Part shown: piece after piece, positions 49,232 to 63,986 of the stretch
Layout: the number at the start of each line of letters is the position of its first letter
Position numbering within the stretch: the first letter of the stretch is position 1
Notes under the pieces: model-generated
Database searches by the model: none
What the model saw: the letters and a program-made list of their open reading frames with translations, nothing else
What the model was told of the DNA's origin: nothing
Position numbers and translations under genes: made by a program
NCBI GenBank assembly: GCA_028714695.1
Contig: JAQTLX010000002.1
Coordinates: 1-64,000 of the forward strand
Length of the DNA: 64,000 nt
Reading direction: 5' to 3'
Source of the DNA: Ignavibacteria bacterium
Lineage (GTDB): Bacteria > Bacteroidota > Ignavibacteria > Tepidaquicellales > Tepidaquicellaceae

Positions 49232-52200
49232 ATGGAATTAGAATCTATTGAAAATAATATTCTTGCTCCAAAAACATCTCAACGAATTAAATTTCGAGGG
49301 CTATTCATTGCAATAATTTCTTTAATAATATTAACGCTTATAGTTCTTGGCTATGTTAATGTAAATAAAACGAGAGAAAAACAGTACAACAGTGCATCTG
49401 AAAACCTCAGAATTATCTCAGATAATAAAGTTGACAGAATCAATAAATGGAGAAATAGTATTATTCTGGGTTCCCGCAAATTTATGAATGACATTGTCAT
49501 TCAAAGGTTTCTTAACGATTGGTTCAGCAGCGAAATAAAAAAAGATGACGATACATTTATTAAAAAATGGCTGACTAATTTTCTGGATTCGGGGGAAGTG
49601 AAAGAGTTCGCTGTCTTTTCGCCGGAAAGGAAATGTCTTGTATTCTCTGATAAGCCGGAGAATTATTCGGAGAAGGAAAGAATATCGGCATTTAATAAAT
49701 GCCTGCAGGGAAAAGATGTAGTTATGTCGGATTTGTATTTTGAAAATGAATATGATAGTGCCAGAATATCTGTTTTTATTCCGGTTATAAATACAAATTC
49801 ATTGAAGAGAATTGTGTCAGGTGTTATCATGCTGGAAATTAATCCCTATATCGAATTATTCCCTATAATTGAATTTTGGCCGTTGAAATCGAATCTCTCA
49901 CAATCCGTACTTATTCGCAGAGATTCAGCGAATGTACTTTACATTGTGAATCGATTATCAGAAAAAAATTCTGTTCTAAAACTGAAATCCCCTCTAAATG
50001 ATACAGACTTTGTCTCTGTTAAAGCGGTTAACGGCCGTACAGGTATCTTCGAAGGAAAAGACTACAATAAAAGAGAAGTGATATCATCATCAGGGAACAT
50101 ACAAGGTACAAATTGGATTTTACTGTCAAGTATAGACAAGGAAGAACTTGATAACCAGGTTGCAAAAACAACAAATATCATTCTTGGATTTATTTTTCTG
50201 ATAATTTTATTTTTCGTTCTTCTGTTAGTACTGGTTCTGAGGCAATACAGATTATCGAAATACAGTGAACTATTAAAAATAGAAAAGGAAAAGAATATTC
50301 AATTCGAAAGATTAAATACTTTGCTGCAAAATGCAAATGACAGCATATTATTGCTGAGCAGCGATGGACTCGTGATTGACGTTAATGATAAAGCCGTAGA
50401 AGTGTATGGTTACTCCAAGAAAGAATTTTCGAAATTGAACATAAGAGATTTAAGGGCTCCTGAAGAAAAAGCATCTTTTAATTCAGCATACTTCGATTTG
50501 AAGAAAAAAAGGTCGCTTGTTATCGAAACAATTCATATCTCAAAAACCGGAAGAACATTTCCGGTTGAAGCCAGTGCATCAATAATAACCTTCGATGGAG
50601 AAGACTATATACAGAATATTGTCAGAGATATAAGTTATAGAAAAGAAACTGATAAGAAATTAAGAGAATCTGAAAATATGTTTAAATCTGCATTTGATTA
50701 TGCGAATGATGCTATGTTCATAATGGACCATGATATAATACTTGATGCAAACAGAAATGCGGAGATACTTTTCGGAATCCCGAAGAAAGACATGATTGGC
50801 AAAAGACCATTTAATTTATCTCCGCAATATCAGGAGGGAGGAAAGGCATCCAAAGAAAAAGCGCTGGAGTCCATCAGTAAAGCAGAGTCCGGCATTCCGC
50901 AGTTCTTTGAGTGGATTCACAGAAATTCAGACGGTGTTGATTTCAATACTGAAGTAAGCCTTAATACTATAATCCTTGAAAACAAAAATCTTATTTTTGC
51001 AGTAGTACGCGACATTACTTTCAGAAAATATGCGGAAAATACACTGCGTGAAAGAGAAAACAGACTTAATCTGGTACTTGAAGGTGCCGAAATAGGATAT
51101 TATGATATGAACATGATTACCGGTGAAGTGATTACCAACGAAAGATGTTATAAGATGCTTGGTTATAATGCAAATGAAATTGTCCGCAGCAGAAAATGGT
51201 GGAGGGATATTGTTCATCCCGATGATGCAATAAATTCGCAAATCATATGGGAAGAATATTTATCCGGAAAAAGAGATATATATGAAGTTGAAGTAAGATT
51301 GAGAAAAAAAGACGGTACCTGGTTATGGGTGCTTGATAAAGGTAAGTTTTTCGAAGTAACGGAAGACGGTAAACCTATAAGAGTTGCCGGTACACATCTT
51401 GATATATCCGCCCTGAAATATTCCGAAGAGGCAATGAGAATTGCAAAAGAGGCAGCAGAAGAAGCCAGCCGCCTGAAATCAAATTTCCTTGCAAATATGT
51501 CTCATGAACTCAGAACCCCGATGACAGGTATAATCGGTTTTTCCGAAATGCTTTTCACGGAACTGGAGGATTCAGAACATAAAGAAATGGCAGAGATGAT
51601 TTTAAAAGGCGGTAAAAGATTAACACAGACTCTGAATTCAATACTCGACCTATCAAGGATTGAAGCAAATCAGATTGAAGTGAAAAAAAATGAATGCAAT
51701 ATAATACCTCTGGTTGAAAATTCAGTGAAGTTATATCAGCAGGCTGCCAAATTGAAGGGATTGAATATCGAAATCAACAGTGATAAAGATGAGTTATTTT
51801 GCATTCTGGATGAAAAAATATTCGAAGATATTCTGAATAATTTAATTAAAAACGCACTGACATATACCGAAAGAGGAAATATTAGCATATCCGTAAGTAC
51901 CATCATTAAAGGTGAAATCAGTTTTGCAAAAATTTCGGTAAAGGATACAGGGATTGGAATTCCCGAAGAACTCCATCAGCAGATTTTTGCTCCTTTCCGT
52001 CAGGTCAGTGAAGGATTAAACAGGAAATATGAAGGAACAGGTCTCGGACTCACATTGACAAAAAAATTAATCGAACTCATGGATGGCAAAATTCATGTCA
52101 AGAGTAAAGTAGGGGAGGGTTCGGAATTTATAGTCGAAATACCTTTATCAACAAAGAAAACCGAAAAAATGTTAAATTCTATTCCTGCCGATTCAGTTTT

Positions 52201-52573
52201 ACCGAAAGCATTGTTCGTTGAAGATGAATATGAGAATTTTGAACTGATAAAGATTCTTCTCAAGCCTTATTTGAATATAGAAAATGCAGTAACCGGATAT
52301 GATGCACTTGAAATGATTAAAAGTAATAATTACGCAATCATATTTATGGATATAGGACTTAAGGGAATTGACGGAATGCAGACTACAAAAGAAATAAGGA
52401 AAATGGACAGATATAAAAACATACCGATTATCGCTATTACTGCTTTCGCAATGACGGGCGATAAAGAAAGAATTCTTGAAAGCGGCTGTGACGAATATCT
52501 GCCTAAGCCTTTTAAAAAAGAAGCACTATTTACAATTTTAAAAAAATATATTAATTTGAATTTGAAAAGTTAA
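49232..52573 (+). CDS. Hybrid sensor histidine kinase with three PAS domains and a receiver
   Basis: A 1113-residue membrane kinase. Transmembrane helices at about residues 28-48 and 312-333 flank a periplasmic sensor of about 260 residues (Cache-like by layout). Then follow PAS1 (about 360-465), PAS2 (about 478-598) and PAS3 (about 605-728, with KDGTWLWVLDKGKF and a PAC end). HisKA carries His758 in NMSHELRTPMTGIIGFSE, the HATPase has N-, G1- and G2-like boxes (DTGIGIPEE, GTGLGLTL), and the C-terminal receiver has the phospho-acceptor Asp1040 in IFMDIGLKG. It probably feeds the receiver-only protein encoded 10 bases downstream. Confidence 0.92.
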   Translation: MELESIENNILAPKTSQRIKFRGLFIAIISLIILTLIVLGYVNVNKTREKQYNSASENLRIISDNKVDRINKWRNSIILGSRKFMNDIVIQRFLNDWFSSEIKKDDDTFIKKWLTNFLDSGEVKEFAVFSPERKCLVFSDKPENYSEKERISAFNKCLQGKDVVMSDLYFENEYDSARISVFIPVINTNSLKRIVSGVIMLEINPYIELFPIIEFWPLKSNLSQSVLIRRDSANVLYIVNRLSEKNSVLKLKSPLNDTDFVSVKAVNGRTGIFEGKDYNKREVISSSGNIQGTNWILLSSIDKEELDNQVAKTTNIILGFIFLIILFFVLLLVLVLRQYRLSKYSELLKIEKEKNIQFERLNTLLQNANDSILLLSSDGLVIDVNDKAVEVYGYSKKEFSKLNIRDLRAPEEKASFNSAYFDLKKKRSLVIETIHISKTGRTFPVEASASIITFDGEDYIQNIVRDISYRKETDKKLRESENMFKSAFDYANDAMFIMDHDIILDANRNAEILFGIPKKDMIGKRPFNLSPQYQEGGKASKEKALESISKAESGIPQFFEWIHRNSDGVDFNTEVSLNTIILENKNLIFAVVRDITFRKYAENTLRERENRLNLVLEGAEIGYYDMNMITGEVITNERCYKMLGYNANEIVRSRKWWRDIVHPDDAINSQIIWEEYLSGKRDIYEVEVRLRKKDGTWLWVLDKGKFFEVTEDGKPIRVAGTHLDISALKYSEEAMRIAKEAAEEASRLKSNFLANMSHELRTPMTGIIGFSEMLFTELEDSEHKEMAEMILKGGKRLTQTLNSILDLSRIEANQIEVKKNECNIIPLVENSVKLYQQAAKLKGLNIEINSDKDELFCILDEKIFEDILNNLIKNALTYTERGNISISVSTIIKGEISFAKISVKDTGIGIPEELHQQIFAPFRQVSEGLNRKYEGTGLGLTLTKKLIELMDGKIHVKSKVGEGSEFIVEIPLSTKKTEKMLNSIPADSVLPKALFVEDEYENFELIKILLKPYLNIENAVTGYDALEMIKSNNYAIIFMDIGLKGIDGMQTTKEIRKMDRYKNIPIIAITAFAMTGDKERILESGCDEYLPKPFKKEALFTILKKYINLNLKS

Positions 52574-52583
52574 TTTTCAGGTT

Positions 52584-52952
52584 ATGGAAAAATTAAAAAT
52601 ATTGTTATTTGAGGATGATGAGGATTGTTCATTTATAATCACCAGATTGCTTTCAAAAAATTTTCTCTTAGATCATTCAGATACTGCCGAAGCCGGTTTA
52701 ACTCTTGCAAAAAATACCGTTTACGACCTTATTTTGATGGATATCGGACTAAAAGACGTAAATGGTATGGATATAGTGAAGAAACTCCGCAGTATGAAAC
52801 ATTATGAGAATACACCTATTGTCGCATTAACTGCATTTGCCATGTTCGGCGATAAAGAAAAATTTCTTGAAGGCGGATGCACTCATTATTTATCCAAACC
52901 GTTTTTATCTTATGAACTTATCGAAACAGTGAACTCCGCTCTTAAAGTTTAG
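52584..52952 (+). CDS. Receiver-only response regulator
   Basis: A 122-residue stand-alone receiver domain. The acidic pocket is FEDDEDC (residues 9-15), the phospho-acceptor is Asp53 in LILMDIGLKDVNGM, followed by the conserved threonine in ALTAFAM and lysine in SKPF. No output domain is attached. Its MDIGLK, LTAFAMxGDKE and SKPF segments closely resemble those of the receiver at the end of the preceding hybrid kinase, suggesting it arose from that domain and works in the same phosphorelay. Confidence 0.9.
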   Translation: MEKLKILLFEDDEDCSFIITRLLSKNFLLDHSDTAEAGLTLAKNTVYDLILMDIGLKDVNGMDIVKKLRSMKHYENTPIVALTAFAMFGDKEKFLEGGCTHYLSKPFLSYELIETVNSALKV

Positions 52953-52988
52953 ATTTTCATTTTACTAATATTTAACTGAAATATTAAT

Positions 52989-52996
52989 TATATTTG
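52989..52996 (+). promoter_or_regulatory. Bacteroidota-type -7 element upstream of the second kinase
   Basis: TATATTTG is a full match to TAnnTTTG, 26 bases before the TTG start at 53023. No TTG at the -33 spacing is evident. Confidence 0.35.
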
Positions 52997-53022
52997 TGTA
53001 ATTAGACAAACTTTATAATTAT

Positions 53023-54792
53023 TTGGGAAGAAAATCTACATATACGATTGTTGTTATTTACTTCATATTTGGTGTTTTATGGATACTAATTACCGATTAC
53101 TTTCTGAAAACTATTGTCCCATCTCTGGGTATTTTTGCATATATATCCTCATTTAAAGGTATATTTTTTGTCGTGCTTTCCACTCTTTTTATATTTTTAC
53201 TGTTAAAAAGATTTTTTTATAAGGAAATCACCGAAATTGAAAACACAGACAAAAAAATTCTTGATAAATTACAACTTGAACTTGAAGATAACAAAAGAAT
53301 TAAGGAAAAATTATTGAAATATCAGGTGAATCTAAATGCTCTGATAGAAAGTAATCTTCAATCATTTGTGCTTCTCGATAAGGATTCTAATATCATTCTA
53401 TTTAACAAGTCTGCCGAGTTTTATATCGGTAAGGTGACAGGCGTTAATATAAAGAAAGATATGAATCTTAGAGAAATTTTACCTGTCGATATGAAAGAGT
53501 CATTTACTCTTAATTTCAATAAAGCAATCAACAATATTCCTGCTCGTGTAGAAAAGAAATTTAATATAGACGGACGTGAACTCTGGGTTAATTTTATTTA
53601 TAATCCGGCTTTTAATAAGGCAAATGAGATATTCGGTGTGATTTTTACGGGTATCGAAAGCACCGAACGGATGAATATGATGAATGAACTGAAAAAAACT
53701 GTTGAAATATATGAAGAACTCATAAAAGCAACTCCCGATGCAGTATCGATAACTAACAAACAAGGAAAACTGGAGTACATTTCTCCCGTAGCACTTGAAC
53801 TGCTTCGAATTGATGATATTAATAAGGCAGTCGACCAGCCCTGCATAAAGTGGTTCGCTGAAGAAGAATATGAAAATCTGCAAAGCAACATTGATTTAAT
53901 AATTAATCATAAACACCAAACAAAAGGGTCTGTCTATAAAATGAGGCGCGACGATGGTTCTTATTTTATAGCAGAATTCAATTCGAGTCCGATTGAGAAT
54001 ATTGACGGCAATCCGACTAGTTTTATTTCAACTTTCAGGGATATAACGCAAAGAATTGAGTCCGAAGAAAAATTAAGAGTATATTCGAATGAACTCAAAG
54101 AACTTAATGCAAGTAAAGACAGGTTCTTTTCAATCGTTGCTCATGACCTTAGGAATCCGCTTCAGGGATTGCTTGGTTTTTCCAGCCTGTTGAACGATAA
54201 TTTCAGCGATCTGACGATAGATGAAGTTAAAGAATATATCGGCTACATATATCAGTCTGCTAAGAAAATGCACTCTCTTACAAATAATCTTCTGCAATGG
54301 TCGAGAATAAAAACAGGAAAAATCGATTATAGTCCGCTTAATATTAATGTATATAATGCCGTCAAACATAATATTGACCTGCTGAAACCAAGCGCCTTTA
54401 AAAAGGAAATAAACATAGAAACGGAAATCGAATCGGATATTAATATCTACGCCGACAGGAAAATGTTCGATTCGATTTTGCAGAATATTTTAAGCAATGC
54501 CATAAAATTTTCATATCCTAAGAACAGAATTGATATAAGCGCGGAAATAAATAAAAATTTTGTCCGCCTTAGCATCAGAGACTACGGTTTGGGCATCAAA
54601 AAAGAAAACACAAGCAAGTTATTCTCAATCGATACTCATTTCACAACGACAGGCACGCAGGATGAAGAAGGGACAGGGCTCGGGCTGATACTCTGCAAGG
54701 AAATGGTTGATAAGCACGGCGGAGAAATAACTTTTGAAAGCGAATATAAAAAAGGCAGTGTCTTCAGTTTCACACTGCCCAAAGGTACATAA
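53023..54792 (+). CDS. PAS-containing sensor histidine kinase
   Basis: A 589-residue kinase starting at TTG. Two N-terminal transmembrane helices (about residues 5-27 and 38-62) lie close together with almost no periplasmic loop. Two PAS domains follow (about 98-220 and 225-345, the second ending in a PAC motif with SFISTFRDITQR). HisKA holds His374 in FSIVAHDLRNPLQGLLGFSS, and the HATPase_c domain ends with EGTGLGLILCKEMVDKHGG. There is no receiver. It may share the receiver-only regulator encoded just upstream. Input is probably cytoplasmic via the PAS domains. Confidence 0.9.
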   Translation: MGRKSTYTIVVIYFIFGVLWILITDYFLKTIVPSLGIFAYISSFKGIFFVVLSTLFIFLLLKRFFYKEITEIENTDKKILDKLQLELEDNKRIKEKLLKYQVNLNALIESNLQSFVLLDKDSNIILFNKSAEFYIGKVTGVNIKKDMNLREILPVDMKESFTLNFNKAINNIPARVEKKFNIDGRELWVNFIYNPAFNKANEIFGVIFTGIESTERMNMMNELKKTVEIYEELIKATPDAVSITNKQGKLEYISPVALELLRIDDINKAVDQPCIKWFAEEEYENLQSNIDLIINHKHQTKGSVYKMRRDDGSYFIAEFNSSPIENIDGNPTSFISTFRDITQRIESEEKLRVYSNELKELNASKDRFFSIVAHDLRNPLQGLLGFSSLLNDNFSDLTIDEVKEYIGYIYQSAKKMHSLTNNLLQWSRIKTGKIDYSPLNINVYNAVKHNIDLLKPSAFKKEINIETEIESDINIYADRKMFDSILQNILSNAIKFSYPKNRIDISAEINKNFVRLSIRDYGLGIKKENTSKLFSIDTHFTTTGTQDEEGTGLGLILCKEMVDKHGGEITFESEYKKGSVFSFTLPKGT

Positions 54793-56049: not shown

Positions 56050-56096
56050 ATAGTAGAAGTACAATAAGTGATTTTTTATGATAGTAGATGCACTAT
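56050..56096 (+). promoter_or_regulatory. Paired dyad sites upstream of sigma-54 promoter 1 (candidate enhancer)
   Basis: Two copies of an ATAGT-N6-ACTAT-type dyad: 56050-56065 (ATAGT...ACAAT) and 56081-56096 (ATAGT...ACTAT, perfect). Start-to-start spacing is 31 bp, close to three helical turns. The second ends 61 bases before the -24 element, the usual distance range for an NtrC-type activator. The same motif occurs in pairs before the two other sigma-54-like promoters. Confidence 0.6.
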
Positions 56097-56156
56097 ATTA
56101 TTCGCAATACCAGAAAATTTTTTAGTCCAATTCTGATAAAAAAAACAAGTTTTCTG

Positions 56157-56173
56157 TTGGCACGCTAATTGAT
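56157..56173 (+). promoter_or_regulatory. Sigma-54 (-24/-12) promoter 1
   Basis: TTGGCACG-CTAA-TTGAT against the consensus YTGGCACG-N4-TTGCW; GG and the -12 element are separated by the required 10 bases, with C to A as the only mismatch in the core. Start of transcription would be near 56184, ahead of the small membrane-peptide gene. Confidence 0.7.
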
Positions 56174-56212
56174 ATTATAAGAGTAACTAAAATTTAATCA
56201 AGGGAGAAGATA

Positions 56213-56308
56213 ATGGATCAAGACATCAAGACAAAGTACGTAAATCCTTACACAATCGTATTAGCAATTCTGTTTATATTCTTAAACGTTGCGATGTTTG
56301 CTAAATAA
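56213..56308 (+). CDS. 31-residue single-pass membrane peptide
   Basis: A very short but well-framed gene. It has a Shine-Dalgarno AGGGAGA 6 bases before ATG, 31 codons, TAA at 56306-56308, a sigma-54-like promoter upstream and a strong terminator downstream. The peptide is MDQDIKTKYVNPY followed by a hydrophobic segment TIVLAILFIFLNVAMFA and a final Lys: a single transmembrane helix with a polar N terminus. Possible roles include a small regulatory membrane protein or a type I toxin-like peptide. No family is recognised. It is the first of three units sharing the promoter architecture. Confidence 0.75.
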   Translation: MDQDIKTKYVNPYTIVLAILFIFLNVAMFAK

Positions 56309-56328
56309 CAATTGTGATTATCTTATGA

Positions 56329-56358
56329 ATAATAGCCGGAATGATATCCGGCTATTAT
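56329..56358 (+). terminator. Rho-independent terminator of the membrane-peptide gene
   Basis: A 12-bp stem with core AATAGCCGGA/TCCGGCTATT, a 6-base loop and CTTATTTTT after it, 20 bases past the stop. It defines the 31-codon gene as a separate transcript of about 180 bases. Confidence 0.85.
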
Positions 56359-56397
56359 CTTATTTTTAATTGCTTTCCCGAAAGTTAATACTATAAT

Positions 56398-56445
56398 ATA
56401 GTGGGTATACTATATTTTATTATAGTATTGTAGTATATTTATTAT
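56398..56445 (+). promoter_or_regulatory. Paired dyad sites upstream of sigma-54 promoter 2
   Basis: ATAGT-N6-ACTAT, perfect, at 56398-56413, and GTAGT-N6-ATTAT at 56430-56445. Spacing is 32 bp start to start, and the second copy ends 36 bases before the -24 element. The surrounding sequence is rich in further TATAGTAT/ATACTATA half-sites. Confidence 0.58.
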
Positions 56446-56480
56446 TTACCTCAATTATTTACCAAAAATGGGCATATTTT

Positions 56481-56497
56481 CTGGCACACCTATTGCT
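56481..56497 (+). promoter_or_regulatory. Sigma-54 (-24/-12) promoter 2
   Basis: CTGGCACA-CCTA-TTGCT: GG and GC are separated by exactly 10 bases and all strongly conserved positions match. This is the best sigma-54 match in the window. The start codon of the T9SS propeller gene is 36 bases downstream of the element, leaving a leader of about 25 bases. Confidence 0.8.
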
Positions 56498-56532
56498 TTA
56501 TAAAGATTATACAAACGAGAAAGGTTAAATTA

Positions 56533-58179
56533 ATGACTAAAAAGGCAATATTCTTCTTCATGACAATAGCAGCAGTATTATCTTTTAATGCAGTTTCTGC
56601 ACAATGGCTTCCCGGAAATCAAATCAACTTAGATGTTAATCCTTGCGTTACGATGGCATCAAACAACACTGTTTTCATAGCAGGAGGTCATAATATCAAT
56701 AATTCCAGAGGGGTTGTTTATAAATCGGTTGATGGGGGAATCACTTTTTCGTCGGTTAGAATGAATTCGACAATAAAAAAGATTTTTTCCATATATTCTA
56801 CAAATGAAAATACTATATATATAGGCGAAGGTAATAATGACGGGGGTCTTCTAAAGGGCGCAAAAGTATGGAAAACGACTGATAACGGATTGAACTGGAC
56901 AAATATAGTTAATCTTGGGACTAAAAATGGTTTTATCAACTTTATACTTTTTTCAAATTCCAATCCTTCTTTTGGTGTGATTCAATCGGATCCTGAATCA
57001 AATAATGGCGGTGATTTTAAATTATGGAAAACAACAAACGGAGGATTGAACTGGACTTCTTTTTCGGCACCGGATGCAAAATCAACCGGATATCAAAATT
57101 CCGGATTTGTAATAGATGCAAATTTCTTCGGTTTTGGCTTATATGATAGTTCTAAGATTGAAATTACAAGAAATGGCGGATTAAACTGGAGTATTATTAA
57201 TATTCCGTGTCTTGAAAAAACCGGCATATCCTCAATATCATTCAGCAATAATAAACTTAATGGCATCGCGGCATCCAGAGTCACGGAAAGTACAGTAGCC
57301 AGAACAACCAACGGCGGTTTAACCTGGTTTTCTCAATCAATTTCTGCAAATAAGAATACCATTTCCGGCACAGGCTTTGTAAAATATATTCCGGGAACAT
57401 CATCAATTTATTTAATGGTATCAAATTCAACGGGAACGGTAAGTTACAAATCAATTGATAATGGTGAAACATGGGAAATATTAAGTGTGCCTTCACAAAT
57501 AAAAGATATTAATGATCTGGCGGTATATTATTCCGGTTCAGGTAATGCAGGGGCATTTGCAGGTTCAAGTTCTACAGTCCCGATAAAATTAATAGATCCA
57601 ACACCGCTGCCCGTCAAACTGCAGTCATTTTCTTACTCAGTAAGCGGTCAGGACGTGAATTTAAATTGGGTCACATCGTCAGAAGTGAACAATAATGGTT
57701 TTGAAATAGAGAGAGAAAACGATGGAAATTGGTTGAAAATTGGTTTTGTAAAAGGTATTGGCAATTCAAATCAACAAAATTCGTACAAATTCTCCGATAA
57801 AAAAGTTGGCAGCGGTAAATTTTCTTACAGAATAAAACAGATAGATTATAACGGAAATTATGAGTATTTCAATTTAAATGGACAGGTAGCAATCGGAACA
57901 CCGGCACAATTTAAACTTTCTCAAAATTATCCGAATCCTTTCAATCCCGTTACTAAAATAGACTTTGAACTATCACAGGACGCATCAGTATCAATTAAAG
58001 TATATGATATGACCGGCAGGGAAGTGTCCGGTATTTTCGAAGGTACAAAAACAGCCGGATATTATACCGTTCAATTTGACGGGAGCAAATTATGCTCAGG
58101 AATCTATTATTACAGTTTAATTGCAAATTCTAATGGAATTGAGACCGTAATTACTAAGAAAATGAATTTAATAAAGTAA
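56533..58179 (+). CDS. T9SS-secreted Asp-box beta-propeller protein A
   Basis: A 548-residue exported protein with a signal peptide ending VSAQW (about residue 24). The body (about 25-355) is a propeller with Asp-box-like repeats: SVDGGITF, TTDNGLNWT, TTNGGLNWTSF, TRNGGLNWS, TTNGGLTW and SIDNGETW. A second beta domain (LPVKLQSFSYSVSGQDVNLNW, about 363-455) precedes the C-terminal sorting domain LSQNYPNPFNPVTKIDFELS, VYDMTGREV and SGIYYYSL. It is paralogous to the next gene over its whole length. It is controlled by sigma-54 promoter 2. Similar propellers bind glycans or proteins; the ligand is unknown. Confidence 0.87.
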   Translation: MTKKAIFFFMTIAAVLSFNAVSAQWLPGNQINLDVNPCVTMASNNTVFIAGGHNINNSRGVVYKSVDGGITFSSVRMNSTIKKIFSIYSTNENTIYIGEGNNDGGLLKGAKVWKTTDNGLNWTNIVNLGTKNGFINFILFSNSNPSFGVIQSDPESNNGGDFKLWKTTNGGLNWTSFSAPDAKSTGYQNSGFVIDANFFGFGLYDSSKIEITRNGGLNWSIINIPCLEKTGISSISFSNNKLNGIAASRVTESTVARTTNGGLTWFSQSISANKNTISGTGFVKYIPGTSSIYLMVSNSTGTVSYKSIDNGETWEILSVPSQIKDINDLAVYYSGSGNAGAFAGSSSTVPIKLIDPTPLPVKLQSFSYSVSGQDVNLNWVTSSEVNNNGFEIERENDGNWLKIGFVKGIGNSNQQNSYKFSDKKVGSGKFSYRIKQIDYNGNYEYFNLNGQVAIGTPAQFKLSQNYPNPFNPVTKIDFELSQDASVSIKVYDMTGREVSGIFEGTKTAGYYTVQFDGSKLCSGIYYYSLIANSNGIETVITKKMNLIK

Positions 58180-58201
58180 TCCTAAAATGCGAAATTTTCT
58201 C

Positions 58202-58237
58202 GTAGTATAAAAACTCTTATAACAGTATGATGACTAT
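58202..58237 (+). promoter_or_regulatory. Paired dyad sites upstream of sigma-54 promoter 3
   Basis: GTAGT-N6-ACTCT at 58202-58217 and ACAGT-N6-ACTAT at 58222-58237, each with one or two departures from ATAGT-N6-ACTAT. Spacing is 20 bp (about two helical turns), and the second ends 48 bases before the -24 element. Confidence 0.5.
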
Positions 58238-58284
58238 TAATTCAAAAATAAAAGCCCAAAAGAAAGTAAAAATCCCCTTTATTT

Positions 58285-58301
58285 ATGGCACAATTTTTGT
58301 A
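58285..58301 (+). promoter_or_regulatory. Sigma-54 (-24/-12) promoter 3
   Basis: ATGGCACA-ATTT-TTGTA: the -24 TGGCAC is intact and spacing to the -12 element is right, with C to T at the -12 cytosine. It lies 21 bases before the start codon of the second propeller gene. Confidence 0.6.
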
Positions 58302-58322: not shown

Positions 58323-60065
58323 ATGAGAAAAAATTTAATAAATATAATAATGAAATCACAAGGTACAAAAATCGGAAAATATGCAGTTGTTGTAACTTTA
58401 ATGCTGGTGTTGACTGCTAACTTATCTTTTGGACAATGGGCACCATCCGGTTCAGCCAATTTAAACAATATAGGTTCATGGCCGAGTGTTTCTGTTGTTA
58501 ACGATAATTTGGTATTTGTTGTTGGCGGAACAGCCGGTTACGGACCCGTCATTTATAGATCAACAAACGGCGGCGCGAATTTTACTGAACTTCCAAGAAA
58601 CGGAATAACAACTTCAGGAAGATTTTTCTCATGCGTATGGGGTAAAGATGCGAATACAATATTTGTAGGCGATGGTGCACCATCAGGTGACGGTACAGTA
58701 GCAGATTCAAAATTTTATAAAACCACCAACGGAGGCACAAACTGGACTGTGATTGGACATAGCGGCAGCGGTGTAACCGGATTTTTTAACGGTATCGTAT
58801 TTTCAAGATCAAATCCGCTTGTTGGATTTGCAAATTGTGATCCGAGCGGAACGACAGGACATTTTTTAATGTGGAAAACAACAAACGGCGGTGTAAACTG
58901 GACGAGTTTCACATTTACCGCTCCAAGCGCTTACGGTGCACAAAACTCTGTATTCTGTATCGATGCAAATTTCTTTGGGTTCGGCTTAAACGTTGCTAAT
59001 GCACGTGTTGCAATAACAACGAACGGCGGTACAAACTTCAATTATTATTCGCTGCAGGGTGCAACAAGTTCACAGGGATTTGTTTCTACTGTTACTTTCA
59101 ACGACGACAAAATTCATGGATATGCGGCAGTAAGTTCAACTAACAATAATATCTGGCAGACAACAAACGGCGGACTGACATGGAATGTTCTTGATGTAAC
59201 CGGAGTTCCAAACAATGTTTCAGGACAGGCAAACATAAAATACGTATCAGGTACAAATTCAGCGTTCTATGTTATTTCGAACACGAATATAACATACAGT
59301 TTCAGAATAGAAAATAACGGCGCTGTATTTACACCTTATACAAGTTCGACATCTGCAGTAAACATAATGCATATTGATGCATATTACAGCGGAGCAAAGG
59401 TAAACGGCAATGCTTCGGTTTACACTATTTCTCCTGCGGGCAGTGTATATAAACTTCAGGATTCACCTCTTCCTGTTGAAATGGCGTCATTTACTTACTC
59501 AACATCAGGAAGAAATGTCAATCTGAAATGGATTACATCGATGGAACAAAATAATGCAGGATTTGAAGTTTACAGAATAAATGACGGTCTCGATAAAAAC
59601 ACAATTTCAAACTGGACAAAAGTCGGTTTCGTACAGGGCAAAGGTACTGTAAACGGCAACACTGAATATAATTTTACCGACAATGGTTTGAATACGGGAA
59701 AATATGATTACAGACTTAAACAAATAGATTATAACGGAAATTTCCAATTTTACAATCTTAACGGATTGGTAAACATCGGAACACCGAGCAAGATAAGCCT
59801 CGGTCAGAATTATCCGAATCCTTTTAATCCTGTAACAACAATCGGATATGAAATTCCTCAGGATTCAAAAGTAACAATGAAGGTATACGATATAACCGGA
59901 AAACAAATTACATCGCTTGTAAATGAATCTCAGACAGCGGGTTATCACACAGTGAAATTCGATGCATCGGGATTCTCAAGCGGAATGTATTTCTATAAAA
60001 TATTTGTAAGCGGTGCTAACGGAGTAAACACCGAAATTACAAAAACAATGAGTGTCGTGAAGTAA
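58323..60065 (+). CDS. T9SS-secreted Asp-box beta-propeller protein B
   Basis: A 580-residue paralogue of the product of 56533-58179. The signal peptide is long (positively charged start, hydrophobic run ending NLSFGQW about residue 39); an internal ATG at 58350 is an alternative start. Asp-box-like repeats include STNGGANF, TTNGGTNWT, TTNGGVNWTSF, TTNGGTNF and TTNGGLTW. The second domain starts LPVEMASFTYSTSGRNVNLKW, and the sorting domain reads LGQNYPNPFNPVTTIGYEIP, VYDITGKQITSLVNE and SSGMYFYKIFVSG. Promoter 3 and a downstream terminator make it its own unit. Confidence 0.87.
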   Translation: MRKNLINIIMKSQGTKIGKYAVVVTLMLVLTANLSFGQWAPSGSANLNNIGSWPSVSVVNDNLVFVVGGTAGYGPVIYRSTNGGANFTELPRNGITTSGRFFSCVWGKDANTIFVGDGAPSGDGTVADSKFYKTTNGGTNWTVIGHSGSGVTGFFNGIVFSRSNPLVGFANCDPSGTTGHFLMWKTTNGGVNWTSFTFTAPSAYGAQNSVFCIDANFFGFGLNVANARVAITTNGGTNFNYYSLQGATSSQGFVSTVTFNDDKIHGYAAVSSTNNNIWQTTNGGLTWNVLDVTGVPNNVSGQANIKYVSGTNSAFYVISNTNITYSFRIENNGAVFTPYTSSTSAVNIMHIDAYYSGAKVNGNASVYTISPAGSVYKLQDSPLPVEMASFTYSTSGRNVNLKWITSMEQNNAGFEVYRINDGLDKNTISNWTKVGFVQGKGTVNGNTEYNFTDNGLNTGKYDYRLKQIDYNGNFQFYNLNGLVNIGTPSKISLGQNYPNPFNPVTTIGYEIPQDSKVTMKVYDITGKQITSLVNESQTAGYHTVKFDASGFSSGMYFYKIFVSGANGVNTEITKTMSVVK

Positions 60066-60803: not shown

Positions 60804-61244
60804 TCAATTTAGCACACTCTTTCTCAGTGTTTCCTGATCTTTGACCTCTATAAATTGAACGTGTCCCAATTCCCAGTTGAGGACCGTTAAGCCTTCATCC
60901 GTGAAAATCTTACGCAAATAATCATAATTCCCTTTATATGAAAACTCTCCGTCGATATAAAAAGCAATGTCGGCGGCGATACCGAAATGATGCATTCCGT
61001 TTTTTCTGATTTTACTTTTACCTGATTTGTAATACTCCGACTGCAGATTATTGCTTCTGTAAGTCTCGACAATATAAACATCATGCGAGGGATATTTTTC
61101 GTTGTATTTTCCGAAACATAAAATAAGTTTATCCAGAAAATCCGGAAACAACAAATTTAAGTCGTTCACGGGTTTTGTAGAATCAAATTCCTTTGATTTC
61201 TTTATGACATTGTCATAATGCTCTTTTAATTTATCATAATCCAT
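60804..61244 (-). CDS. M15-family peptidase, probable phage endolysin
   Basis: A 146-residue soluble D-Ala-D-Ala-type/L-Ala-D-Glu peptidase. The zinc-site motifs are MHHFGIAADI (about residues 84-93; His86 and Asp92 of HxxGxAxD) and the downstream GHVQF (about 127-131), with a catalytic glutamate in NWELGH. YIVETYRSNNLQSEYY is the typical N-terminal R-S segment. Size fits a phage lysis enzyme, which cleaves peptidoglycan cross-links at cell lysis. It starts 1 base after the preceding membrane-protein gene. Confidence 0.85.
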   Translation of the reverse strand: MDYDKLKEHYDNVIKKSKEFDSTKPVNDLNLLFPDFLDKLILCFGKYNEKYPSHDVYIVETYRSNNLQSEYYKSGKSKIRKNGMHHFGIAADIAFYIDGEFSYKGNYDYLRKIFTDEGLTVLNWELGHVQFIEVKDQETLRKSVLN

Positions 61245-61245
61245 T

Positions 61246-61851
61246 TTATAAAAATTTAAGTTTTAATGAAACTGACATGAAGAATTTATTTTTCTCATTT
61301 CCGTAGCCAAATCCTGCTATTATAAAAATCTTATCCTTGTATGAAACCCCGGTTTCTGAAATTATTTCATAATTGAATTTGAGTTTCTGCTGAGGATATA
61401 ACTTTATTGATACATCGGGTCTACAGAAATTAAAATTTCTGCTTTTTATGATGATATTCTCCTTAACGGGAACGAGAGTGAAGTCATTTCCGAGGTTATC
61501 GAATTTATATTCACTGACTATTGTATCAAATATATTAACTGTTTTCACATTCAGATTCCTTCCCGATTTTTCCAGTCGTATCGGCAGATCGTACTTCGTA
61601 ATTTTTTCGATAAAGACAGTATCCGTTTTCTGCACGTATATTTTTTGCGGTGTCAAATGATTGTTCGCAAGTTTATCGATGAACCTGAATACGGTATCGT
61701 GACTGATTTCGGATTCGTACTTTCTTAATATATTCGTATCTCCGATTTCAATTCTATTGTCATTGTATTTATTTTTCACAGACATGAAAACCAGCAGACC
61801 AATACCGATTAAGAAAATAAGTGATAGAATTATTTTGCACCAATTATTCAT
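61246..61851 (-). CDS. Membrane-anchored hypothetical protein, possible spanin-like lysis accessory
   Basis: A 201-residue protein with one N-terminal transmembrane helix (about residues 7-25, IILSLIFLIGIGLLVFMSV) and the rest predicted outside the cytoplasm, ending in an aromatic beta stretch (FFMSVSLKLKFL). No family is recognised. Its position between a holin-like gene and an endolysin gene, where phages often encode Rz-type spanins, suggests a lysis or envelope role by context only. Confidence 0.65.
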   Translation of the reverse strand: MNNWCKIILSLIFLIGIGLLVFMSVKNKYNDNRIEIGDTNILRKYESEISHDTVFRFIDKLANNHLTPQKIYVQKTDTVFIEKITKYDLPIRLEKSGRNLNVKTVNIFDTIVSEYKFDNLGNDFTLVPVKENIIIKSRNFNFCRPDVSIKLYPQQKLKFNYEIISETGVSYKDKIFIIAGFGYGNEKNKFFMSVSLKLKFL

Positions 61852-61870
61852 TTTACTTTCTCCTTTTCAT

Positions 61871-62119
61871 TTACTGTTCCGTAGCCCGTTCTTTGCCGGT
61901 CGAATTTAGTTCTGCAAATTTTTGGGCTGCCTTCCCGCCGAAACCGAAGCCGAGCAATGCGGCGCTCAGGTAAATAAATTCATGAAGATATATATCTTCA
62001 TATCTCATAAATCCCATGACAAGAACGGCAAACGCTGCGATTAAGCCCGCAATTACGGTAAGAAAGGAAATTAATCTCATCATGGAATATTCTGTGTTTT
62101 CAAGAAAAAATTTTAGCAT
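61871..62119 (-). CDS. Small two-helix membrane protein, holin-like
   Basis: 82 residues from ATG at 62119 (MLKFFLENTEYSMMRLISFL), 10 bases after the connector gene. The longer frame to 62158 would overlap that gene. Two hydrophobic helices (about residues 13-35 and 41-59) are joined by RYEDIYLHE, with a charged C terminus ending KERATEQ. Size, topology and place just upstream of an endolysin fit a phage holin; no family signature is seen. It resembles small 'EYSxMRL' membrane proteins of phages and prophages. Confidence 0.65.
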   Translation of the reverse strand: MLKFFLENTEYSMMRLISFLTVIAGLIAAFAVLVMGFMRYEDIYLHEFIYLSAALLGFGFGGKAAQKFAELNSTGKERATEQ

Positions 62120-62129
62120 ATATGTTATT

Positions 62130-62756
62130 TTAAATTTTAACCGATAAATATTTTTCAAGTATGGAATCGTAATTTTCGTCTTTATATGTGAACGAATACT
62201 TAGTCTCGCTGCCTGAGTCTTTTTTGAGTATGTCCATGCGTTCCAGACCGATTCTCCGAGTCAGATTTTCATCGCCGCAATACTGAAAACTTTTTAGAAA
62301 TGATTCTGCTGACATCATCAATGCAACCCATTTCAAATCAGGAGGTAATTCGTTTATCGGGTCATTTGCATTTTCGATATATCCTGCGAAATATTTTATT
62401 CTGATATTGGAGTTTCCTGCAGGGAGTGTGAATCCGTTTAATAGGATAATTTTACCGCTGTCCTGTTCGCAGAATAGGTTTTCTTCAACCGGTTTTCCTC
62501 CGAACAGATCTGCGCTGAAAGTACCCGTTTCTTCTCTTACCATAACGGAATCTACTTTCTCTACTGGATAGTTCGATAATCTTATAATATTCTCGTTCTT
62601 GCCGCTGAGTATTTCATATATTCTCGAATAACTTAGTTTCCTTTTGCATAGATTGTTTATTCTGGCAGTTGTCATATCAATGATTTTGCGAAGGAAATTA
62701 TCCTGGGAAGTATCCTTTATCCTGAGGAAATATTTTAAATCATCTATATTTATCAT
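62130..62756 (-). CDS. Phage head-tail connector protein, gp6-like
   Basis: A 208-residue helical/beta protein. The N-terminal IDDLKYFLRIKDTSQDNFLRKI with a second helix TTARINNLCKR (about residues 3-40) is the pattern of gp6-like/QLRG head-tail adaptors of HK97-type phages. It follows the capsid gene on the same strand, as connectors normally do. The C-terminal extension is longer than the usual 90-110 residues of gp6, so a fused or lineage-specific domain is present. Confidence 0.75.
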   Translation of the reverse strand: MINIDDLKYFLRIKDTSQDNFLRKIIDMTTARINNLCKRKLSYSRIYEILSGKNENIIRLSNYPVEKVDSVMVREETGTFSADLFGGKPVEENLFCEQDSGKIILLNGFTLPAGNSNIRIKYFAGYIENANDPINELPPDLKWVALMMSAESFLKSFQYCGDENLTRRIGLERMDILKKDSGSETKYSFTYKDENYDSILEKYLSVKI

Positions 62757-62786
62757 TTTTATGTGTTTTAAATTCTAAATTTTATA

Positions 62787-62809
62787 AAGAGGGAGGAATC
62801 CTCCCTCTT
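62787..62809 (-). terminator. Hairpin between capsid and connector genes
   Basis: A 10-bp stem AAGAGGGAGG/CCTCCCTCTT with a 3-base loop, 35 bases after the capsid stop. The minus-strand T-tract is short (TTTATA), so it may attenuate rather than fully end transcription, setting high capsid and lower downstream expression. Confidence 0.6.
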
Positions 62810-62843
62810 ATTTGTTTATTCATTGCGGTATATTCTTCAAAAA

Positions 62844-63986
62844 CTATTCTACCGCCGTTTTCAGAACGGAAAGCGCAATCGGGTATGTGAATTTCACATC
62901 GAATGAAGCATTGAAATTCAAACCTACGAGTCCGGATTGCCACAGATTGACGTTCTGAGTTCCCATCTGAACCGTAGCATCTTTGCTGAAATCTATCGTC
63001 AGATTATTTCTTAATCCGATTGCCATATAACTCAAATCACCGAATGCTAAAAATGCCCTGTCTGTTTCGGATTCGCTCAATGAGTAACAGGCATCCGATA
63101 ATTCGACCGGATATCCTTCAAGTATCATTTCTTTCCTGTCCTGCGGGCTGAGAACGTACTCGGAATTAGGCGCGTATTTCAGGGATTTTATCAATCCGTA
63201 AATGGTTCTGTTCATGTACCATTTTGAATTTTTCAGAGTATGCGATGGTACTGAAGAAACCGCTTCGATAAGATCATCATATGTTAAACTGTTGAAATCG
63301 GTGCCTGTTATTTCCATAACTTTTGCGCCGATGCCGTTTGTGAGCAATCCGTCGATATTTCCCGGAATACCCCTGAATGCGGCAGTATCTATTGTGTATG
63401 ACATAATCTGAGCGGCAAGATTTGTGACGAATCCCATGACATCAAATGCTTCATCTTCAAGCAGTTGCTTCGAGAACAGGACTATAAAACCGCCGTCCTT
63501 TCTTCTAAGAATTACCTGTGCGAAAGACGGGTTCGAAACGGGTTTTACCGTGCCTTCACTTACAAATGACCATGTAGGAAGCGTGTCGAGTTTAGGTATC
63601 ACAAGTTCGCGTCTTGTCATATTGTATATCGTTGCGTTTCGCATCGCTACACCGCCGGATTTTACGAGTGACATGATTCTGTCGTTCCATTCCTGAGGGA
63701 CCAAATAACCTCCGGCAGTGCCTGTAGATTCATTCAGGAAATCCCTGTAATTCACGGGCAGTAATTCCGGTTTACCATAAACGATTGACTTAAGAAAATT
63801 CCTTCCGTCCTGCACGGTCTTGCTTTCTTTATTAGCCGTATCTCTGAATCCTTCAGAGGGAATTTGCGTCGAAGTCAGATTTCCGATGTCCGCTATCTCC
63901 TTCTTTACAATTTCAGCGGCAACTTTTCTTGAAATTGCTTCAACTTTGTTTTCGTCGATTAATTCGACATTTGTGTTTTCATCCAT
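62844..63986 (-). CDS. HK97-fold phage major capsid protein
   Basis: A 380-residue capsid protein. An N-terminal helical scaffold-like segment of about 70 residues (ENKVEAISRKVAAEIVKKEI) precedes the capsid core, which begins FLNESTGTAGGYLVPQEWNDRI (split, about residues 85-106), the classic HK97 transition. Core landmarks are ATIYNMTRRELVIPKLD, FSKQLLEDEAFDV, AFRGIPGNIDGLLTNG and the P-domain/C-terminal AFGDLSYMAIGLRNNLTID. It would form the head shell. The usual upstream partners (protease, portal, terminase) would lie beyond 64,000 on this strand. Confidence 0.9.
   Translation of the reverse strand: MDENTNVELIDENKVEAISRKVAAEIVKKEIADIGNLTSTQIPSEGFRDTANKESKTVQDGRNFLKSIVYGKPELLPVNYRDFLNESTGTAGGYLVPQEWNDRIMSLVKSGGVAMRNATIYNMTRRELVIPKLDTLPTWSFVSEGTVKPVSNPSFAQVILRRKDGGFIVLFSKQLLEDEAFDVMGFVTNLAAQIMSYTIDTAAFRGIPGNIDGLLTNGIGAKVMEITGTDFNSLTYDDLIEAVSSVPSHTLKNSKWYMNRTIYGLIKSLKYAPNSEYVLSPQDRKEMILEGYPVELSDACYSLSESETDRAFLAFGDLSYMAIGLRNNLTIDFSKDATVQMGTQNVNLWQSGLVGLNFNASFDVKFTYPIALSVLKTAVE

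Follow-up and report, generated by a model that had tools for sequence, protein, structure and literature searches.

In Desulfovibrio vulgaris, the regulons of group I (NtrC/AtoC-type) sigma-54 activators are small and use inverted-repeat sites, most of which lie less than about 100 bp from the promoter; some activator sites there precede operons that have no -24/-12 element (PMC4641369). The same Desulfovibrio survey held the GSFTGA variant of the activator loop to be functional (PMC4641369). Francke et al. proposed in 2011 that sigma-54 is a general controller of the bacterial exterior, and we found no mention of Bacteroidetes or Chlorobi in the text of that study (PMC3162934). A 2025 survey of sigma-54 regulons does not mention Ignavibacteria or T9SS (PMC12316311), and our literature searches found no sigma-54 regulon for Ignavibacteria or for T9SS cargo. 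In the PorXY-SigP system of Porphyromonas gingivalis, PorX acts with an extracytoplasmic function (ECF) sigma factor on secretion-apparatus genes (PMC4800418, PMC8265659).

Here, we describe, in an Ignavibacteria bacterium, what is very probably a single sigma-54 regulon that covers T9SS surface proteins and membrane micropeptides and would be driven by a phosphorelay composed of a hybrid kinase, an Hpt protein, and an NtrC-type regulator. Its mark is the palindrome ATAGT-N6-ACTAT, which lies 48-74 bp upstream of -24/-12 promoters and often occurs as two copies separated by two or three helical turns; this site was not found in the sigma-54 regulon literature searched. Like the NtrC/AtoC-type regulons of D. 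vulgaris, the system has a response-regulator activator with an AAA+ domain and a Fis-type HTH; unlike them, it has T9SS surface proteins and micropeptides as targets, belongs to Ignavibacteria, and includes a linked Hpt protein and hybrid kinase, implying a four-step phosphorelay (PMC4641369). Its targets are components of the exterior, in keeping with the view of Francke et al. (PMC3162934). It shares with PorXY-SigP a two-component system placed over T9SS-related genes, but here the sigma factor is sigma-54 and the sites were found at cargo genes, not apparatus genes (PMC4800418, PMC8265659). As a sigma-54 activator regulon it is of an ordinary kind; its novelty lies in the site, the assigned regulator, the targets, and the taxon.

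We analyzed the first 64,000 nucleotides of one contig (C2:1-64000, referred to as the window) of a draft genome of 3.85 Mb; tests at the genome level relied on pattern searches and on stretches of the genome. The original prediction had placed three sigma-54-dependent units in the window, and the features of these units are as follows.

56050..56065, plus strand: distal dyad of unit 1, ATAGTAGAAGTACAAT, one mismatch to ATAGT-N6-ACTAT
56081..56096, plus strand: proximal dyad of unit 1, ATAGTAGATGCACTAT, perfect, gap to -24 of 61 bp
56158..56171, plus strand: -24/-12 sigma-54 promoter of unit 1, TGGCACGCTAATTG, from pattern search
56213..56308, plus strand: open reading frame of a 31-residue single-span membrane peptide, MDQDIKTKYVNPYTIVLAILFIFLNVAMFAK, start codon ATG at 56213
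56329..56367, plus strand: intrinsic terminator ending unit 1, 12-bp stem and T-rich tail
56398..56413, plus strand: dyad of unit 2 (distal copy), ATAGTGGGTATACTAT, perfect, gap to -24 of 68 bp
56430..56445, plus strand: possible second dyad of unit 2, GTAGTATATTTATTAT, two mismatches, gap of 36 bp, doubtful
56482..56495, plus strand: -24/-12 sigma-54 promoter of unit 2, TGGCACACCTATTGC, full consensus, from pattern search
56533..58179, plus strand: propeller 1, 548 aa, with signal peptide, Sortilin/Vps10-type propeller, and T9SS type A C-terminal sorting domain (PF15902 and PF18962 above cut-off)
58202..58217, plus strand: distal dyad of unit 3, GTAGTATAAAAACTCT, two mismatches
58222..58237, plus strand: proximal dyad of unit 3, ACAGTATGATGACTAT, one mismatch, gap to -24 of 48 bp, 20 bp from the distal copy
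58286..58299, plus strand: -24/-12 sigma-54 promoter of unit 3, TGGCACAATTTTTG, from pattern search
58323..60065, plus strand: propeller 2, 580 aa, with signal peptide, beta-propeller, and T9SS C-terminal sorting domain (PF18962)

A pattern search of the window returned TGGCAC-N5-TTG elements at 56158, 56482, and 58286, exactly where they had been predicted. All three have the fixed -24/-12 spacing of the TGGCAC-N5-TTGC type; the full TTGC is present in unit 2 only, the other two units having TTGA and TTGT. Across the 3.85-Mb draft genome, TGGCAC-N5-TTG occurs 22 times, compared to 10 for the reversed control, and sigma-70-type promoters around the three units did not exceed chance level. Absence of rpoN had been named as an outcome that would overturn the prediction; the genome encodes one complete RpoN of 489 aa, with activator-interacting, core-binding, and DNA-binding domains (PF00309, PF04963, and PF04552), and ten strong Sigma54_activat proteins (NtrC-type activators).

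The dyad pairs were likewise found at the distances first described: the proximal copies lie 61, 36, and 48 bp from the promoters of units 1 to 3, and the copies of each pair are 31, 32, and 20 bp apart. That every unit has two dyads holds for units 1 and 3; the proximal copy of unit 2 at 56430, which sits in AT-rich surroundings with many half-sites, is a doubtful, weak copy. Dyads with at most one mismatch number 6 in the window versus 2.5 expected. This count was matched by 4 of 100 shuffles and is only mildly unusual, which by itself would be compatible with palindromes and TGGCA-like sites arising by chance in AT-rich intergenic DNA. Thus, the case had to rest on evidence from outside the window.

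To this end, 197 genomes (29 of the same family and 168 others) were compared using the pattern of a dyad followed after 42-72 bp by TGGCA-N6-TTG. The relatives named here are all metagenome-assembled genomes (MAGs) of uncultured organisms, mostly labelled Ignavibacteriae or Ignavibacteria. The family has 13 exact arrangements, spread over 10 of its 29 genomes; of the 168 others, 2 had a match, and these last two matches apparently lie inside coding sequence. Reversed and permuted controls of the exact arrangement gave no sites in the 29 family genomes. With at most one mismatch, the family has 37 sites; a permuted dyad combined with an unchanged promoter part gave 10. Some of the weak sites, though not most, are therefore accidental, and individual ones (56430 and those in G005 and G020) may be among them. 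The original prediction was to fall if the dyad proved as frequent in random intergenic DNA; its frequency at sigma-54 promoters is far above chance. The reversed and permuted controls rule out a chance origin of the whole regulon, and the dyad is also conserved in orthologous leaders, which leaves this explanation a negligible probability.

The placement of the dyads in the relatives is also regular. For the 13 exact sites, gap lengths fall into clusters at 49-50, 60-62, and 68-69 bp (Rayleigh p ~0.0003 versus uniform, period 10.5). The pairs in the window had been described as lying near whole helical turns, and these distances are right; among the relatives, however, second dyads are weaker and mostly 20-21 bp further upstream, and many promoters have just one good dyad. 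Comparison of 36 promoter sites showed that positions 3-5 and 13-14 are invariant; the inner bases favour T at position 7 and A at position 10, so the fuller site reads ATAGTNTNNANACTAT. The dyad has the properties of an activator site (UAS), namely, a palindrome located less than about 200 bp upstream of the promoter and helically placed, and it is conserved in G001 and G003 at the promoters of the propellers and the peptide and, in 8 genomes, in the kinase leaders. The genes behind the family sites mostly encode exported proteins, including the propeller 1 ortholog in G003 (L096). Targets that are not clearly exported are coiled-coil proteins (L168, L175, and L176) and a cytoplasmic-looking gene after L189; the proteins at L168 and L176, which follow dyad promoters in two genomes, are coiled-coil-like, have ~249 residues, and have neither a Pfam match nor a signal peptide.

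In its own genome, the dyad is rare. The perfect ATAGT-N6-ACTAT occurs 4 times in 3.85 Mb versus 14 times for the reversed control, and versions with at most one mismatch number 120 versus 349. Each of the four perfect dyads can be accounted for: two are in the window, and the others are at C2:363319 and C6:33853. The one at C2:363319 lies 69 bp upstream of a -24/-12 promoter, TGGCATGAATATTGC (C2:363404), which precedes the gene for a 728-aa protein carrying a T9SS sorting domain. By chance, one of the two perfect dyads outside the window would fall 42-72 bp before any of the 47 sigma-54-like sites with a probability of ~0.0008. At C6:33853, the dyad is separated by 5 bp from the start codon of the gene that follows, which encodes a PAS hybrid histidine kinase of 930 residues. 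A scan allowing two mismatches gave 16 matches versus 10 controls; thus, only one further site was kept, at C25:27319, for its full -24/-12 element and a target conserved in relatives. This fifth promoter has a two-mismatch dyad, ATAGTATCCGGACTTC, a gap of 61 bp, and the element TGGCAGGATAATTGC, and is followed by a gene for a DUF4402-like exported protein whose homologs in relatives are also behind dyad promoters. Such proteins, of ~170 residues, recur after dyad promoters in five genomes (L091, L167, L169, L185, and L282). The proposed genome scan, therefore, returned a rare dyad tied to -24/-12 promoters before exported proteins. The three units very probably share one system, but the regulon is larger than the three-unit one first proposed, with at least five promoters in the genome and the kinase leader.

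Some sigma-54-like promoters in this genome form a second class, with a TGAGA-N5..7-TCTCA dyad ~50-116 bp upstream; none of them has the ATAGT dyad. The TGAGA dyad is probably the site of another activator. The loci of this class are C2:72849, C2:294353, C2:297301, C8:73189, C9:126878, C15:7856, and C3:43960 (L022, L024, L025, L028, L030, L036, and L052).

A signal peptide combined with a C-terminal sorting domain (PF18962), as expected of T9SS cargo, was found in both propellers, in the target of C2:363404, and in the G008 target; signal peptides were assigned by eye. The structural model of propeller 2 is of low confidence (pLDDT 64), and its best matches in the PDB are propellers, with a predicted fold resembling sortilin, GH74, and sialidases. 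Other genes next to propeller 2 (window 60804-63986) look phage-derived, including a capsid gene (PF05065) at 62844-63986, and the G001 propeller gene also adjoins homolog-like neighbours, of 204 and 147 residues (L188 522-1581). PAS-type histidine kinases flank the trio here (window 49232-54792) and in G003 (L182 86-1588 and 7172-9442); the candidate regulator is encoded elsewhere.

The product of unit 1 could in principle be a small RNA rather than a peptide. Its predicted transcript of ~190 nt ends in a strong terminator and folds somewhat better than shuffles (z -2.4); however, no Rfam family was matched across the three-unit region, and 31-codon orthologs of the peptide open reading frame, with a Shine-Dalgarno sequence, adjoin propeller genes in G001 and G003. 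Our own open reading frame, which follows a Shine-Dalgarno sequence (AAGGGAG) at 56200-56206, differs from its G001 ortholog, MDQENFKKFVNPYSVLVVILVLFLNVAMLAK, at 9, 5, and 25 sites in codon positions 1, 2, and 3, respectively, a pattern indicating that the peptide gene is translated and under selection. We therefore consider the small RNA quite improbable and treat the product as a peptide. The orthologs in G001 and G003 each have their own dyad and sigma-54 promoter, and the G001 propeller is likewise behind a dyad promoter. G003, a second species, carries the trio in the same order (31-residue peptide, propeller 1, and propeller 2), with a -24/-12 element and dyads before each; peptide orthologs thus adjoin the propellers in three species. 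Other short single-span peptides, of 40, 40, and 32 residues and unrelated in appearance, follow dyad promoters in G010, G022, and G003. Tentatively, these observations suggest that single-span micropeptides of 31-40 residues are standing members of the regulon and that a dedicated small membrane factor may accompany each deployment of T9SS surface proteins. If so, the micropeptide might, for instance, tune the secretion machine or the inner membrane.

The kinase behind the perfect dyad at C6:33853 has a PAS-HisKA-HATPase-REC-REC-Hpt-like architecture. Genes upstream of it that share its strand encode an Hpt protein, a glyoxalase/HPPD-like protein, and the candidate regulator; the free-standing Hpt is thus encoded between kinase and regulator.

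C6:35521-36903, same strand as the kinase: NtrC-type response regulator, 461 aa (PF00072, PF00158, and PF02954 above cut-off; loop GSFTGA)

This product has the receiver, the Sigma54_activat domain with a GAFTGA-type loop, and the Fis-type HTH_8 that characterize NtrC-type activators. NtrC1 and other solved NtrC-family regulators (PDB 4l4u and 1ny5) are the closest solved sequences, with homologous receiver and AAA+ domains and a different recognition helix. PorX-type regulators consist of a receiver and an alkaline-phosphatase-like domain. The PorXY-SigP model was rejected for this system because an AAA+ activator and sigma-54-type promoters were found instead.

The original prediction had called for a linked NtrC-type regulator, and the dyad itself points to one. 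We found 8 clear kinase orthologs (42-100% identity over the searched N-terminal part), and all 8 have the dyad just before the start codon (4 perfect, 3 with one mismatch, and 1 with two); these leaders have otherwise diverged, and the dyad is the principal block they still share. Each of the 8 genomes also encodes the regulator less than about 3 kb from the kinase on the same strand. Orthologs of the regulator (at least 58% identity) occur in 19 of the 29 family genomes, and every one of the 10 genomes with exact sites is among them. Sites with at most one mismatch were present in 16 of the 19 genomes with the regulator versus 2 of the 10 without it (Fisher p 0.001, without ancestry correction), a co-occurrence mapped for this one regulator among the ten activators; G007, G014, and G017 have the regulator and no site with at most one mismatch. 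The recognition helix reads FHPV[ST]LRQKI in all intact orthologs (FHPVSLRQKI in our genome) and differs from that of the other activators compared. The kinase alone was rejected as a marker of the regulon, because several site-bearing genomes lack it and all of these have the activator; the sensor must differ in the six concerned (G004, G006, G019, G021, G026, and G028). In most relatives, a secreted phospholipase-D-type-like protein is encoded directly before the regulator gene (L136-L151), and our own copy has a T9SS-like tail.

Collectively, these data indicate that the dyad is most likely bound by the C6:35521-36903 regulator. The regulon and its dyad could be real and yet be served by a different activator, either one of the other nine or a second paralog, the kinase dyad then being a cross-regulatory site. 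Activators can control unlinked genes, and several relatives encode a second activator that is 49-69% identical to this one and, where compared (L165), has an identical recognition helix. The conserved dyad, however, is found in the locus of this activator only, the other nine activator loci of our genome having no dyad with at most one mismatch within 1.5 kb, and every genome with an exact site has an ortholog of this regulator; a different activator is, on this evidence, unlikely. Far less probable is that the dyads are operators of a repressor or another non-sigma-54 regulator that merely lie near the promoters. No -24/-12 element follows the kinase dyad, as this explanation would have it, but activator sites without sigma-54 promoters are also known (PMC4641369), and the fixed, phased distance of 48-74 bp across the family is the usual placement of activator sites. 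Motif, promoters, family conservation, linkage, and co-occurrence all support the central proposal of an NtrC-type activator working with sigma-54 on surface protein genes.

By analogy with the biology of group I activators, the PAS hybrid kinase would phosphorylate the free-standing Hpt, which would in turn phosphorylate the NtrC-type regulator. The active regulator would then assemble on the dyads and loop to the sigma-54 polymerase, presumably switching on the secreted T9SS propellers, G-W-S-S-type proteins, the DUF4402-like exported protein, and the single-span micropeptides. The dyad in the kinase leader suggests feedback on the kinase, which would probably be repression because no -24/-12 element follows it.

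In vitro binding could test this system, making culturing unnecessary. The regulon also gives a handle on micropeptides that annotation usually misses. It links sigma-54 to T9SS cargo, a connection absent from the sigma-54 surveys cited here (PMC3162934 and PMC12316311). For an uncultured class, it supplies a binding site together with a candidate regulator, a candidate phosphorelay, and a list of targets.
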